Position numbers and translations under genes: made by a program. Source: Iodobacter sp. (GTDB taxonomy: Bacteria; Pseudomonadota; Gammaproteobacteria; Burkholderiales; Chitinibacteraceae). From it: a stretch of 58,622 nucleotides of DNA. This document shows positions 3,006 to 37,447 of this stretch, one piece after another. The notes beneath the pieces were generated by a model. The model searched no databases. It had not been told where the DNA came from and was given only the letters and a program-made list of their open reading frames with translations. The stretch covers positions 1-58,622 of the forward strand of contig NZ_JANXSO010000044.1 in NCBI RefSeq assembly GCF_025352645.1. The letters are read 5' to 3'. Within the stretch, counting starts at the first letter, position 1; each line of letters begins with the position of its first letter.

Positions 3006-3476
3006 GATCTGAGCCTGTAGAAAGTTAAAAAACAATATATACAACTAAAGCAACAACCAGCGTAAGACATTACTCTAGTTTATTCTGGGATATGACTTCC
3101 AGCAGCGTTTATGTTGAGCTACCTGCTTATGCACTGGGAGGTGGCTTATTCAGGCCGTACTTAAAAACCAAACTTGCAGACTAAATCAAAAAAATTGAAT
3201 ACGCTCTTCATGCCCAGAAACATCACCACTCTTGCCCCGCAAGTAAATGCTTATTATAGGCCAGATATCGACTCATTTTTTTAGAAGGCACTAAAGGAAA
3301 TGCTGATCAAATCAATAAATTAACTAATTTGTTGATATCGGCCACATGGTCTGCCGTCATTATTAGAGTAAGCCCATAAACCCAGATACGCTAAAGTAAT
3401 TAGTCATAGCTAGCGATTGGAAAAACCTAGTGCCAAACCAAGAGGGGGAATTATCTAGCCCCTTATAAATTAATAC

Positions 3477-3499
3477 CTGATTATGCCTCTTGCTCAGTA
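3477..3499 (+). repeat. Short dispersed repeat (GATTATGYCTCTTGCTCA type)
   Basis: A 20-25 base sequence centred on GATTATGCCTCTTGCTCA recurs at about 18498-18521 and 37425-37447 with one or two differences. All three copies are intergenic and within about 100 bases of a larger palindromic repeat. No function is known to me. Confidence 0.5.
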
Positions 3500-3558
3500 A
3501 CACCAATGTCAATAATTTTTTTAGAACCGCACTTTGTTTTTGTAAGCTGGATAAAACC

Positions 3559-3927
3559 TAACTCTATCAACTTAAGCAATATGCCATTCGTAGGGTGGGT
3601 GCAACCTTTGATCGACGTTGAAAAAGACGCGGGTTTCGCTCCAATCCTATCAACTTAAGATTTAACCAACATGTAGGGTGGGCAAGGCGGTTTATCTTGC
3701 CCACGCGGATACGCGGCGTGGGCAAAAAACGCGCCCACCCTACAATGTTTTAAATGCTTGCAATAGTGCAATCCAAGTTGAAGCCTGTGTAACAATTAAA
3801 ACATTCCCCTTAAGTTGATAGGATTGGGTTTCGCTCGCCCTACGATGTTTCAACGCTTGCAATAGATAGATCTAAGTTGATCGCCTAAGGTTTAACGATC
3901 AACAGCGCCATTAAGTTGATAGGGTTG
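3559..3927. mobile_element. Outer inverted-repeat element (MITE-like), interrupted by a second copy
   Basis: The ends (3559-3575 and 3911-3927) are inverted repeats related to CAATCCTATCAACTTAA, with two differences between the two ends. The element is flanked by the perfect direct repeat GGATAAAACC at 3549-3558 and 3928-3937. Removing the inner element and its duplicated target leaves 174 bases, exactly the length of the copy at 21881-22054. Its interior carries the palindromic core beginning GTAGGGTGGGTGCAAC. The inner element sits in the middle of this core. There is no coding capacity. Confidence 0.85.
3642..3826. mobile_element. Inner inverted-repeat element (MITE-like), 185 bp, nested
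   Basis: Perfect 18-bp terminal inverted repeats CAATCCTATCAACTTAAG (3642-3659) and its complement (3809-3826). They are flanked by the perfect 10-base direct repeat GGTTTCGCTC at 3632-3641 and 3827-3836. The core palindrome begins GTAGGGTGGGCAAGGCGG (3673 onward) and differs from the core of the outer copy. A right-hand part of the same subtype occurs at 9880-10032. The nesting shows it transposed after the outer copy. There is no ORF, so mobility needs a transposase supplied elsewhere. Confidence 0.88.
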
Positions 3928-3937
3928 GGATAAAACC

Positions 3938-4441
3938 CGCGAATAATCCTCAATAAACACAAGTATTTCACCCAATATGCGCTATTTATGATGAATGTGA
4001 GCAAGAAGCATAATCAGGAATTAATATGTCAGACTATTTATCAATTGGCACTGAGCCAGCAAGCGCATGATGCTAACTACCAGCAAAAATGCAATTAATC
4101 TAAAATATCATCACCATAGTAATTCTGCTTTAAATATCTGTCACTTTACAAAATCACAGCAAATAAGCCAAAAAAATCCTAAATATTTCTCCTAGGGATT
4201 CAAGGTATAAAGCGGATTACCTATATACAGCACAATGCCGTTGTATTATAAATCACGCCCTAAACAAATGACTCTGCGCACCGCCGCAGATAAATTCCAT
4301 CTATTTTATGGAAAATAAACCGCAGTTCTTTAAATAGCCATAATACTTTGGCTGTATAAAAATAATAATTCTGGCGTTTATCTCTACCATTCAATTTATT
4401 GTTAAATAAATCATCACCTTAAATACCCCAAAGGAAATAAT
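3938..4441. other. Gene-free AT-rich interval before the loiP-like gene
   Basis: About 500 bases with no convincing reading frame, RNA gene or repeat. It presumably holds the promoter of the M48 peptidase gene, but no clear -35/-10 pair could be singled out. Confidence 0.4.
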
Positions 4442-5200
4442 ATGAAACTACGTGCCCTTGCCCTTAGCGGCCTGTTTACCTGCTTACTTGCCCCAGCTGC
4501 ATCGGCCTTTGATTTAGGCGGCTTAATGAAAGCAGGCGAACAAGCCCTGCAAGCAGCTACCTTATCTGATGCCGATGTAAAATCGCTGGCAAATCAAGCC
4601 TGTGTACAAAGCGATTCTGAATCATCCATTGCTCCAGCCAAAAACAAATACAGCAAACGCTTGGATATTATTGCTAAAAAACTAGGCAGCGATATCAATG
4701 GCCAGCCCGTTAATTACAAGGTTTACCTAACTAAAGATGTGAATGCATGGGCCATGGCCAATGGCTGCATCCGTGTTTACAGCGGCCTGATGGATTTAAT
4801 GACAGACGATGAAGTGATTGGCGTACTGGGCCACGAAATGGGCCACGTCGCACTGGGCCACAGCAAAAAAGCCATGCAAACTGCCTACGCTGTTACAGCA
4901 GCACGCACCGCAGCAGGCTCGGCGGGCAATGCCACCGTAGCTCAATTAAGCGGCTCTAATCTAGGCGAGTTTACTGAAAGCCTTGTAAATGCTCAGTTCT
5001 CGCAATCGCAAGAATCTGACGCAGATAATTTCTCTTTTGATGTATTAACTCAGAAAAAATTAAACCGTGAAGCCTTGGCTTCAGCCTTCCAGAAGCTAGA
5101 AAAGCTGGGTGGCGGCGAGCACAGCATGCTCAGCTCGCACCCTGCATCTGCAGATCGCGCTAAAAACATTCAAGCAAAAATTGAAAGCAGCAAGAAGTAA
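4442..5200 (+). CDS. loiP: M48-family zinc metalloprotease, LoiP (YggG)-like
   Basis: Predicted periplasmic zinc protease of the M48 family. In E. coli, LoiP is an envelope protease linked to low osmolarity and cell-envelope quality control. The 252 residues align along the whole length with LoiP as I recall it: SDADVKSLANQAC, INGQPVNYKVYLTKDVNAWAMANGCIRVYSGLMD, the zinc motif HEMGH (131-135), QSQESDAD with the third zinc ligand, and SSHPASADRA near the end. The N-terminus is a signal peptide ending ASA (residues 20-22). Unlike the E. coli lipoprotein it has no convincing lipobox; Cys14 sits in LFTC, which does not fit. A terminator follows directly. Confidence 0.85.
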   Translation: MKLRALALSGLFTCLLAPAASAFDLGGLMKAGEQALQAATLSDADVKSLANQACVQSDSESSIAPAKNKYSKRLDIIAKKLGSDINGQPVNYKVYLTKDVNAWAMANGCIRVYSGLMDLMTDDEVIGVLGHEMGHVALGHSKKAMQTAYAVTAARTAAGSAGNATVAQLSGSNLGEFTESLVNAQFSQSQESDADNFSFDVLTQKKLNREALASAFQKLEKLGGGEHSMLSSHPASADRAKNIQAKIESSKK

Positions 5201-5896: not shown

Positions 5897-5961
5897 GATG
5901 TAGGGTGGGTGCAACCCGCGTCTTTTCAGCATTGCTCGCGAGGTACGCCCGCCCTACATGA
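5897..5961. repeat. Solo palindromic core repeat upstream of glmS
   Basis: ATGTAGGGTGGGTGCAACCC at the left is answered by GCCCGCCCTACAT at the right, making a hairpin of about 65 bases. The same core is found inside the inverted-repeat elements at 3559, 14654 and 21881, but here no CAATCCTATCAACTTAAG ends are present. It lies about 40 bases upstream of the glmS start codon, between glmS and the divergent Lrp gene. Confidence 0.75.
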
Positions 5962-9289: not shown

Positions 9290-9418
9290 AAGCTCAAAAG
9301 CGAGTTCACCACACACATTACCTAGCCCATCGCTTTGAGCGAGGCAGCCAAAATGTGCGTATTTGGGTTCCTTGCGCTGCGCTACGGCCCCCTCTCAACT
9401 CACACAATAGGAACACTC

Positions 9419-9883
9419 ATGGACGTCCAAATTGTTACATTCCCTGAAACAAAGGTTGTTGCCGTTGAGCATCTCGGGCCGCCTGCACTTGAATACGATA
9501 CGGTGCGAAAGCTAGTCGCTTGGAAGCTAGAAAACCGACTACTGGATCAATTGAAGTATCGAAGCTACGGCATCCACTACACAAACCCACTCATCACGCC
9601 GCCTTCCGATCACCGCGTAGATTTCTGCCTTTCTTTTGATGAAGACGTTGGCCCCAATCCTTACGAGATTCGAAATATGGTCATCCCAAGCCTGCGTTGC
9701 GCTTTTGCACGGGACATTGGCTCCCGATCAAACAATAAAGCCGCCATCTATCTCCATGAAACTTGGTTGCCCCAAAGCGGCGAATCACCCAGTGATTTCC
9801 CCATCTTTTTCCACTACGTCAACGTTGGCCCAAATGTGCGAGAAGAGGAAATGATAACCGATGTCTACTTACCATTGAAGTAG
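9419..9883 (+). CDS. GyrI-like small-molecule-binding domain protein
   Basis: A 154-residue stand-alone GyrI/SbmC-like effector-binding domain, beginning MDVQIVTFPETKVVAVEHLG and ending in the characteristic ITDVYLPLK strand. Such domains bind hydrophobic small molecules, often as the C-terminal half of AraC regulators, and stand-alone versions can protect gyrase or hydrolyse toxins. The start has AGGA about 8 bases upstream; the frame extends to 9335 without a better site. The stop codon TAG (9881-9883) lies within the first bases of a truncated repeat element, so the 3' end may have been altered by that insertion. Confidence 0.8.
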   Translation: MDVQIVTFPETKVVAVEHLGPPALEYDTVRKLVAWKLENRLLDQLKYRSYGIHYTNPLITPPSDHRVDFCLSFDEDVGPNPYEIRNMVIPSLRCAFARDIGSRSNNKAAIYLHETWLPQSGESPSDFPIFFHYVNVGPNVREEEMITDVYLPLK

Positions 9884-10032
9884 GGTGGGCAAGGCGGTTT
9901 ATCTTGCCCACGCGGATACGCGGCGTGGGCAAAAACGCACCCACCCTACGATGTTTTAAATGCATGCAATAGTGCAATCCAAGTTGAAGCCTGTGCAACA
10001 ATTAAAACATTCTCCTTAAGTTGATAGGATTG
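9880..10032. mobile_element. Left-truncated inverted-repeat element (same subtype as 3642-3826)
   Basis: These 153 bases match 3673-3826 with about six substitutions and one single-base gap, ending in the perfect right terminal repeat (10015-10032). The first 31 bases, including the left terminal repeat, are absent, and the junction falls on the stop codon of the GyrI-like gene. Confidence 0.85.
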
Positions 10033-14653: not shown

Positions 14654-14829
14654 CAATCCTATCAACTTAAGGGAAATATGTTGATCGTTAAATCTTAAGC
14701 AATCAACTTTGATCGATCTATTGCGAGTATTGAAACATTGTAGGGCGGCTGAAACCCGCGTTTTTTTCAGCATTACTCGCGGGTTGCACCCGCCCTACGA
14801 ATGGCAGATTGCTTAAGTTGATAGGATTG
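14654..14829. mobile_element. Inverted-repeat element (MITE-like), 176 bp
   Basis: Perfect 18-bp terminal repeats CAATCCTATCAACTTAAG at 14654-14671 and the complement at 14812-14829. Flanking bases GGGTACAAGC (14644-14653) and GGGTGCAAGC (14830-14839) match at 9 of 10 positions, a target duplication with one later change. The interior has the GTAGGGCGG...CCGCCCTAC palindrome near the right end. The left flank (GGGCGGGTACAAG) itself resembles a core repeat, so the target may have been an older repeat. Confidence 0.88.
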
Positions 14830-18497: not shown

Positions 18498-18521
18498 TCC
18501 TGATTATGTCTCTTGCTCAAT
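18498..18521 (+). repeat. Short dispersed repeat, second copy
   Basis: TCCTGATTATGTCTCTTGCT plus CAATGA, nearly identical to the copy at 3477 and similar to 37425. It lies just before the solo palindromic core at 18569. Confidence 0.5.
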
Positions 18522-18568
18522 GAACTCTTTGTAGATGGATTTCTTGAGTGCTGGGCTTGGTTTTTGAA

Positions 18569-18634
18569 TGTGTAGGGCGGGTGAAACCCGCGAGCAATAT
18601 TGAATAAATACGCGGCTTTTACCCTCCCTACGAT
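18569..18634. repeat. Solo palindromic core repeat
   Basis: GTGTAGGGCGGGTGAAACCC on the left and ACCCTCCCTAC on the right enclose an AT-rich centre. It has the core of the inverted-repeat elements but lacks their 18-bp ends. It sits between the ECF sigma gene and the VWA gene. Confidence 0.65.
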
Positions 18635-18755
18635 ATTTATAATGAGATTAAGTAAGAGAGCTAATCAGCTAGGTTTTTATGCCAGCCCAAGCAATAACTG
18701 GGCTTAGCCCCAACCTTATAAACTATCTTCCTAGGTTTGCTAAGCATGTATATAG

Positions 18756-21880: not shown

Positions 21881-22054
21881 CAATCCTATCAACTTAAGGT
21901 AAATTTGTTGATCGTTAAATCTTAAGCGATCAAATTAGAGTTGATCTATTGCAAGCGTTGAAACATCGTAGGGCGGGTGCAACTCGCGTTTTTTAGCATG
22001 GCTGCGGGCTACACCCGCCCTACGAATCGCAGATTGCTTAAGTTGATAGAATTA
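21881..22054. mobile_element. Inverted-repeat element (MITE-like), 174 bp
   Basis: The left end is CAATCCTATCAACTTAAG (21881-21898) and the right end CTTAAGTTGATAGAATTA (22037-22054), two changes from perfect. It is flanked by the perfect direct repeat TCTGCAATTC at 21871-21880 and 22055-22064. The interior matches the 14654 copy, including TTGATCGTTAAATCTTAAGC and the GTAGGGCGGG...CCCGCCCTAC core. It lies between the DUF4349 gene and the chemosensory operon. Confidence 0.9.
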
Positions 22055-22226
22055 TCTGCAATTCTCTACCTTAATAGCCCATTCATTTGCTTACGACAAT
22101 ACTCAAAAAAAATATGGTTATTCCAAAAAATACTTACTAATTCACCACTCTATATTAGTTAATAGTTTGACACACGAGCAAAGCCAAACTAGCTTGAGTT
22201 ATGCTTTTTCACTTACTTAAGTAACA

Positions 22227-23579
22227 ATGAATAAAGAGAAGCCAATGCAAACGGCCTGGTTTGATGATCTCACTCGCTTAGTCCTAAGCCGCACCGGCAT
22301 TGTTGTGCGTGAGCAGGACAACCTATGCAAAGAGATTGAATCCATCAGCCGCAAGCAGCTAGGACTTAGCCCCGTGGAGTTGCTGGCTGAACTGCAACAC
22401 AGCAAAACAGCATCCAGCCGTGCTTGGCGTGAACTACTGGCCTTCCTTACAGTGGGTGAATCGTATTTTTTCCGCGATGAGGGGCAGTTTAAGCTACTGA
22501 GTGAGCACATTCTGCCCGAGCTACTGGCACAAAATGGCAATAGGCTACGAATCTGGAGTGCGGCCTGCTCCTCTGGCGAAGAGGCTTATTCCATCGCTAT
22601 TCTCATCAGCCAATTACTGCCTACCTTGGCCATAGGCCAGCGGCCGGATATTCAGATAATCGCCAGCGATGTAAACCAGTTGGTGCTAGAGAAAGCCAAG
22701 CAGGGAATTTATAGCGAATGGTCTTTCCGTAGAGTGGATCCAGCCATAAGGAGCATGTATTTTACAAAACAGATAGATGGCTGGAAGATTAATCAAAACA
22801 TACAGCAGATGGTGAAGTTTTATTATGGCAACTTACAAGAAGACTTACTTCCGGCACCAAGCACCCCATTTCATGATTTTGATTTAATTATTTGCCGCAA
22901 TGTATTTATTTATTTTCAAGCTGAAACCGTTAGCCAAATCAGCAGTAAATTTGTTGCCTGCTTAAAGGCCCCTGGCTACTTAATAACAGGCCATGGTGAG
23001 CTAGGCCTACAGGGTGCTAAAGGGCTAGATATAATAAGTATTGATAATTTGCTGGTTTATAAAAAAAATATATTAATGCCACCCACTCCTGTGCTGCAGC
23101 AAATCAATCTAAAACCTCAGGCTCTACCCCCCGCGCTACCGCAAAAAAAACAAGCGCAGCTAAAACCTAAAGCACCCGTGCCCGTTTTTAATGATTTATT
23201 ACAGCAAGCTAAAAAATATGCAAACAACGGCCAATATGAGCTGGCAACAAAAAATAGCCATGAAGCCATCAAGCTGAATCCCGACTCCCCGCAGCCGCAT
23301 TTTGTACTGGCGCAAATTGCCGAAGTGCTCGGCAATCGGGCAGAAAGTAAAACCATACTCAAAAAAGCTTTATATCTAGACCACACGTTTCTCCCTGCTT
23401 ATGTTGAATTATTTAATATTTATATGCATGAAGATAATAAAAAAATGGCAGAAAAAATGCTCGCCAGTGCATTAGATATTGTGCGTTTATTACCAGGCCA
23501 TACACCGGTGACCCTGTATGACGAAACCAGCGCCAGCGAACTACTGCTAATGCTGGAACAGTTTCAAACCAGTTTATAA
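22227..23579 (+). CDS. CheR-type protein-glutamate methyltransferase with TPR domain (WspC-like)
   Basis: Uses S-adenosylmethionine to methylate receptor glutamates. Of 450 residues, about 1-60 form the CheR N-terminal helices, TVGESYFFRD (75-84) and SAACSSGEEAYS (111-122) belong to the SAM-binding methyltransferase domain, and LIICRNVFIYF completes it. A Pro/Lys linker leads to tetratricopeptide repeats at about 320-430 (ATKNSHEAIKLNPDSPQPHFVLAQ). CheR-TPR fusions are typical of Wsp-like and other alternative chemosensory systems, where the repeats mediate partner contacts. AGAGAAG precedes a second ATG at 22245, a credible alternative start. It is the first gene of the operon. Confidence 0.92.
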   Translation: MNKEKPMQTAWFDDLTRLVLSRTGIVVREQDNLCKEIESISRKQLGLSPVELLAELQHSKTASSRAWRELLAFLTVGESYFFRDEGQFKLLSEHILPELLAQNGNRLRIWSAACSSGEEAYSIAILISQLLPTLAIGQRPDIQIIASDVNQLVLEKAKQGIYSEWSFRRVDPAIRSMYFTKQIDGWKINQNIQQMVKFYYGNLQEDLLPAPSTPFHDFDLIICRNVFIYFQAETVSQISSKFVACLKAPGYLITGHGELGLQGAKGLDIISIDNLLVYKKNILMPPTPVLQQINLKPQALPPALPQKKQAQLKPKAPVPVFNDLLQQAKKYANNGQYELATKNSHEAIKLNPDSPQPHFVLAQIAEVLGNRAESKTILKKALYLDHTFLPAYVELFNIYMHEDNKKMAEKMLASALDIVRLLPGHTPVTLYDETSASELLLMLEQFQTSL

Positions 23580-37424: not shown

Positions 37425-37447
37425 TCCTGATTATGTCTCTTACTCAA
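37425..37447 (+). repeat. Short dispersed repeat, third copy
   Basis: TTCCTGATTATGTCTCTTAC plus TCA, matching the copies at 3477 and 18498. It lies 15-20 bases before another inverted-repeat sequence. Confidence 0.5.

Follow-up and report, generated by a model that had tools for sequence, protein, structure and literature searches.

Near the start of a 58,622-nucleotide stretch of DNA from Iodobacter sp. (contig NZ_JANXSO010000044.1; the whole of this stretch is called here the window), two small inverted-repeat elements lie one inside the other, each of them between perfect 10-bp direct repeats. How did this nest arise, and to which kind of mobile DNA do its elements belong? The setting itself is unremarkable, since the profile matches between 172 and 58285 are to ordinary chromosomal genes (TilS, FliW, an M48 peptidase, an AlkZ-like glycosylase, CheR, a hybrid sensor kinase and aminopeptidase N).

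Three stacked elements and the order of their insertion

With a length of 185 bp, the inner element (3642-3826) has perfect 18-bp inverted ends and is flanked by the 10-bp duplication GGTTTCGCTC on the left (3632-3641) and on the right (3827-3836). The outer element (3559-3927, 369 bp) lies between two copies of GGATAAAACC (3549-3558 and 3928-3937), and its ends are imperfect, with 3 and 2 mismatches to the same 18-mer. As shown below, both are IS4-type MITEs. The preliminary description of this locus had given the coordinates, ends and duplications of the two elements, and all of these proved exact, base for base. It had also pointed out that the outer element, once the inner one and one copy of its duplication are subtracted, leaves 174 bp, the length of the copy at 21881-22054, which carries the exact duplication TCTGCAATTC. 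The figure is correct, but the coincidence of lengths is partly luck: the end-to-end alignment of the remnant with that copy contains small indels (142 of 177 columns identical), and another copy, at 14654-14829, with perfect ends and the flanks GGGTACAAGC and GGGTGCAAGC (9 of 10 positions alike), is 176 bp long (143 of 176 columns identical). These two uninterrupted paralogues represent empty sites for the inner insertion.

A third layer, unnoticed in the preliminary description, encloses both elements. The outer one interrupts an IS1595-related MITE (3476-4018), whose arms CCTGATTATGCCTCTTGCTCA, at 3476-3496 and 3998-4018 (the latter with one mismatch), are bordered by a perfect 8-bp duplication, AATTAATA, at 3468-3475 and 4019-4026. 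An 8-bp duplication is typical of IS1595. Without the outer element and one copy of the duplication of the latter, the enclosing MITE measures 164 bp and aligns with other copies of 169-171 bp. Its ends are shared with an IS1595-family (PF12762) insertion sequence of the same genome (G000:C136:317-1357), which is 1041 bp long, with a 316-codon open frame and the 8-bp duplication TCAAGGTA on both flanks; the element in the window is instead an interrupted MITE of about 170 bp. With IS1595-family ends and an 8-bp duplication, 3476-4018 qualifies as an IS1595-derived MITE. Ends of this type gave 158 matches in the genome and 0 in the control, and among 17 pairs the 8-bp duplication was exact in 6 and had at most one mismatch in 8, compared to 0 and 0.12 for re-paired flanks. 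The window holds a further copy at 18499-18668, with a GTAG-tagged hairpin at 18572-18631 and a degenerate right end that was placed by eye. Two other observations concern the same family: at 37426-37446 an IS1595-type end (2 mismatches) is followed by different, repeat-like sequence and has no partner at up to 3 mismatches in the window, and locus L366 (G000:C46:68682-69484) is an 803-bp IS1595-family copy in which the transposase reading frame is broken.

Empty sites were found for the outer insertion as well. At loci L331 (in the same genome, G000), L333 (in G007) and L330 (in G001) the alignment continues across the insertion point, to the left of which it has a 6-base gap; these loci are other copies of the host repeat, not the orthologous place. 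The preliminary description had proposed that empty sites be looked for in relatives, and at the same place there was none: searches with 3928-5200 and 22055-23579, downstream of two of the sites, revealed no orthologous empty site in the nine genomes of the genus. Of the 8 congeners, 6 yielded the M48 gene and 2 (G007 and G008) the CheR gene, and the DNA upstream of these genes does not align with that of the window, so only paralogous empty sites are claimed here, which differ in sequence from the locus itself. The earlier observation was real and its reading as successive transposition is supported, by duplications above chance and by uninterrupted paralogues for both insertions, except that the stack records three insertions rather than two.

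Ends, duplications and a full-length partner

The 18-bp end is by no means restricted to this locus. At up to 3 mismatches it has 9 matches in the window, against a shuffle mean of 0.07, and the genome-wide check recommended earlier gave 121 matches in the 4.39 Mb of G000, with 0 for the reversed control. Besides the complete copies, the window carries a truncated inner-type copy (9880-10032), which begins at the hairpin and retains the right end only. The stop codon of a 182-aa open reading frame (9335-9883) falls in the first bases of this fragment, and the C-terminus of the product may have been altered by insertion or deletion.

Bacterial MITEs are short, non-coding, multicopy elements with inverted ends and target duplications, and they share their ends with insertion sequences. 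The 33 small paired copies of G000, 95-369 bp long and non-coding, have inverted ends and agree in each of these respects with bacterial MITEs in general (for a review, PMC10969869).

Target duplications were counted in 34 paired copies (the 33 small ones and one full-length element), which are those in the stretches retrieved and a part of all 121 end matches. At 10 bp the duplication was exact in 8 of the 34 and had at most one mismatch in 17. As a null, the left and right flanks of different copies were re-paired, a procedure that keeps the target preference; this gave means of about 0.05-0.06 exact and 0.46-0.48 at up to one mismatch, with maxima of 2 and 4 in 5000. The flanking repeats, for which the preliminary description had asked for a comparison with chance across the genome copies, are therefore far above this expectation. 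Among lengths from 6 to 14, exact duplications occurred at 10 and at no other, so that the target duplication has the constant length expected of a MITE. Seven of 41 candidate pairings (10-bp mismatches 6, 6, 4, 4, 6, 8 and 1) had been dropped, since they span nested or adjacent copies or claim an end that another pairing also uses, and with these kept the count at up to one mismatch is 18 of 41. In G008, where 3 of 16 pairings were dropped on the same grounds (mismatches 3, 4 and 4), 3 of 13 pairs were exact and 7 of 13 had at most one mismatch; the signal was weaker in G007, with 1 of 15 and 2 of 15. Both congeners were sampled in 20 chosen regions each, plus the search loci.

These counts bear on the idea that recombination or gene conversion between palindromes, and not transposition, made both the ends and the flanking repeats. 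Many copies do lie in similar hairpins, and the 17 of 34 pairs that have no duplication at up to one mismatch would fit such a history, as would the unmatched flanks of loci such as L004 and L034, which could be recombinants. Pairs of this kind also imply that many copies are old, rearranged or wrongly paired. However, flanks match far better within a copy than between copies, at length 10 only, and the exact duplications of the copy at 21881 and of locus L024 are unlike the hairpin arm. We give recombination very little chance as the origin of these structures.

An insertion sequence with matching ends, another of the checks proposed earlier, is present in the same genome (G000:C114:8214-9493). 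It is 1280 bp long and has perfect ends that agree with those of the MITEs at 18 of 18 bp, the 10-bp duplication GGATTACCGG and a 382-aa open reading frame that matches Pfam DDE_Tnp_1. Together with the genome-wide duplications, it bears out the claim of a non-autonomous mobile family. In the available part of the study by De Palmenaer et al. (2008, PMC2266710), the IS4 family has duplications of about 10 bp, and its subgroup IS4Sa has CA------T ends, a length of 1150-1750 bp and duplications of 8-10 bp (Table 1 of that study); the element found here has the ends CAATCCTAT, 1280 bp and 10 bp, the last being about one helix turn. The Y(2)R(3)E(6)K motif is present as Y250, R253, E257 and K264, and is complete in 75 of the 81 relatives that cover it. 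The element is thus like the IS4 family (IS4Sa or IS4 subgroup) in its single transposase ORF, this motif, its 5'-CA ends with T at position 9, its length and its duplication, the choice between IS4Sa and IS4 resting on such features rather than on phylogeny. It follows that the 10-bp duplications, called unusually long in the preliminary description, are ordinary, since IS4-family elements characteristically duplicate about 10 bp.

Unlike the IS4 family, most copies here are MITEs and the full-length copy is defective in its catalytic residues: the first Asp (residue 87) and the Glu of YREK are present, and the second Asp is absent, although it is kept in all 81 relatives (of 84) with alignment over that column. 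Its score with the NCBIfam IS4 model NF033592 is 92.9 bits, under the cut-off of 115, which 4 of 4 relatives tested passed (120.5-153.6 bits). The loss of the second Asp suggests that this copy, which has the ends of the MITEs, is itself probably inactive and not autonomous. No second genomic match to the transposase was found in G000 at E 0.001, and with the only full-length copy found lacking this residue, the family is probably now immobile in that genome. The solved structures searched with the transposase gave no meaningful match. Four MITEs compared with the full-length element had little in common with it beyond the 18-bp ends, indicating that they did not arise from it by simple internal deletion.

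The catalytic state of the full-length copy invites a different reading, in which the MITEs owe their mobility to another, more distantly related IS4-type transposase than that of the 1280-bp kind. The copy looks catalytically dead, and G001 encodes other relatives of the transposase, at 48-52% identity. Yet the MITEs and the insertion sequence of the same genome share all 18 bp of their ends, and G008 appears to contain a close relative in multiple copies. There we found 29 matches to the transposase tail, and terminal stretches of about 90-140 bp that are 91-99% identical to the insertion sequence of G000; judging from these tails and terminal stretches, this relative seems to occur in G008 in many copies, which break the assembly. 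A more distant transposase is, in our view, rather unlikely, and a transposase of the 1280-bp kind is the preferred source of mobility.

The preliminary description knew of no account of this family, which holds for the sequences and not for the kind. The 18-bp end sequences had no match in the largely open-access full texts searched; literature searches gave nothing on the family among the matches listed, and hairpin-like strings led mostly to unrelated papers among the matches listed. The plasmid and phage collections held no match to the MITE. The IS4-type MITE family is new and has a preference for a hairpin target, and it belongs to a well-known kind of mobile DNA.

A GTAG-tagged hairpin as target and possible passenger

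The inner element contains a GTAG-tagged hairpin at 3673-3743 (GTAGGGTGGGC ... GCCCACCCTAC). Compared with shuffles, single-strand folding gave z values of -10.2 for the inner element and -8.3 for the copy at 14654-14829. With a loose pattern the hairpin was found in 31 of 33 small IS4-type copies in G000, 15 of 15 in G007 and 13 of 13 in G008, against 5.9, 2.9 and 2.0 in shuffles. With a stricter pattern it was found in 7 of 17 IS1595-type pairs; among these are some that owe the hairpin to a nested IS4-type element and some that are elements other than MITEs. Its arm had 115 matches in G000 (reversed control, 0) and was present in 10 of 61 genomes, with one control match, in G046. Separately, another GTAG-tagged hairpin, at 5900-5957, is flanked by a further inverted repeat (GGATGAAAAG... 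/ ...CTTTTCATTTATC) that looks unlike both MITE families and has no second flank copy among the loci retrieved.

A tagged palindrome at high copy number is what defines GTAG REPs, which have been described together with RAYT transposases (PMC3733652, PMC2817692), as have REP-type repeats within larger palindromes (PMC3733652), in the parts of these papers available. Could the elements be REP- or BIME-type repeats that owe their spread to a RAYT tyrosine transposase, with their 18-bp ends and the repeats beside them as incidental features? The frequency of the hairpin among the small copies would agree with this, and in the accessible part of PMC2817692 REPs of the GTAGGG type are linked with RAYTs in other bacteria. 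However, the Y1_Tnp profile (PF01797) had 0 matches in the genome of the window, and the control matched in 5 of 14 genomes. Duplications of 10 bp, which are strong in these MITEs, would not be expected from transposition of the RAYT type, and the ends match a DDE insertion sequence. A RAYT was accordingly disfavoured as the mover, and we regard it as very unlikely. The hairpin remains like GTAG REPs in its tag and palindrome. It differs from the GTAG REPs and RAYTs described in PMC3733652 and PMC2817692 in that it is harboured by two MITE families unrelated to each other and that the genome gave no match to Y1_Tnp.

The hairpin is also a favoured landing place of the IS4-type elements. As seen from the alignments, both stacked IS4-type insertions are at the same place in a hairpin arm, GTAGGGC-GGGTGAAACC-CGCG. 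Genome-wide, 34 of 108 end flanks in G000 match the arm in exact register at 12 or more of 16 bases and 74 fall below this level, compared to 0-2 when the match is shifted by 1-5 bases and to a window background of 0.00026. The same register was matched by 10 of 34 ends in G007 and 27 of 81 in G008, and by 8 of 17 G008 ends with an interior like that of the full-length insertion sequence, the ungapped test having caught these 17 and missed others on contig ends. For the 108 ends, the best flank match was to the IS1595-related MITE in 20 cases and to the IS4-type MITE in 5 (two of them the ends of the inner element), and the assignment may be exchangeable in a few cases because the hairpin is common to both families. 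A Spearman correlation of 0.97 between ends and hairpin arms across nine genomes was set aside, as the MITEs contain the arm; it mixed mismatch limits (121 for G000, 103 like for like), with the same rank order.

We are thus highly confident that the locus consists of stacked IS4-type MITEs, mobilised in trans by a DDE transposase of their own type, with 10-bp duplications and a hairpin target, inside an IS1595-related MITE. At the level of sequence the ends, the duplications, the order of insertion, the paralogous empty sites and the target register are established. In the mechanism that we propose, short non-coding elements with the ends of the full-length insertion sequence would be moved by its DDE transposase, which would paste them into staggered cuts and so generate the 10-bp duplications, presumably by cut-and-paste chemistry. 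The IS1595-related MITE entered AT-rich DNA first, with its 8-bp duplication; an IS4-type MITE then inserted into one arm of the GTAG-tagged hairpin of that MITE, and a second IS4-type MITE into the equivalent arm of the hairpin in the first. The preference for GGGTGAAACC within the arm would be exerted by the transposase rather than by a host factor. Since both MITE families carry the preferred arm, nesting would be favoured, and with the favoured target inside the elements it is less of a coincidence; it probably arises from the tendency of the family to insert into its own hairpin sequence. This sets the family apart from MITEs in general, as far as the available part of the review goes (PMC10969869): the REP-like hairpin that forms its interior doubles as the preferred target.

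The use of REPs as insertion targets has a precedent in ISRm22, an IS4-family element of Sinorhizobium meliloti (Tobes and Pareja 2006, PMC1525189). In the part of that report available, 9 of its 9 copies on the chromosome lie in REPs, and repeats of 6 bp are given at the axis of the palindrome. Like ISRm22 so described, the element studied here is of IS4 type and strongly prefers a GC-rich repeated palindrome. Unlike it, the duplication is of 10 bp, one arm is used, about one third of the ends are involved and the target is carried by MITEs.

Distribution of the family and its significance

The IS4-type ends were present in all nine genomes of the genus examined, and a single match was found in 1 of 52 others. 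Related transposases, with 36-56% identity, were found at 84 loci, comprising all 80 retained loci, which are mostly proteobacterial, and 4 further ones. When 45 loci were tested (44 of the 80 retained, plus L160), 28 had inverted ends and a duplication, of 10 bp in 25 and of 12 bp in 3, and 17 did not. Plasmid relatives of the transposase reached at most 45% identity among the best 20 of 25 records. The transposases of L160 (G001) and of L073, from a Janthinobacterium MAG, had identical alignment values with the query, which hints at recent transfer. In G008, the ends at loci L283-L287 and L299 are the same but surround another type of hairpin (GTAGGGTGTGCAAGTCG), so that the core differs between species and the ends are kept.

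With three stacked insertions and three intact duplications, the order of events at this locus can be read directly. The stack also suggests a reason why small repeats cluster, namely that the target travels within the element. A broader idea, which we advance tentatively, is that the REP-like GTAG hairpin of the genus may no longer depend on a tyrosine transposase of its own and may be a passenger of two unrelated DDE MITE families and the favoured target of one of them, each copy providing a new landing site; the result would be a self-renewing, self-nesting platform that spares genes. If this were true, REP-like hairpins could persist and multiply without a RAYT transposase. Otherwise, the locus leads to a well-documented family of IS4-type MITEs, with ends in nine of nine genomes of the genus and a target preference defined at base resolution.
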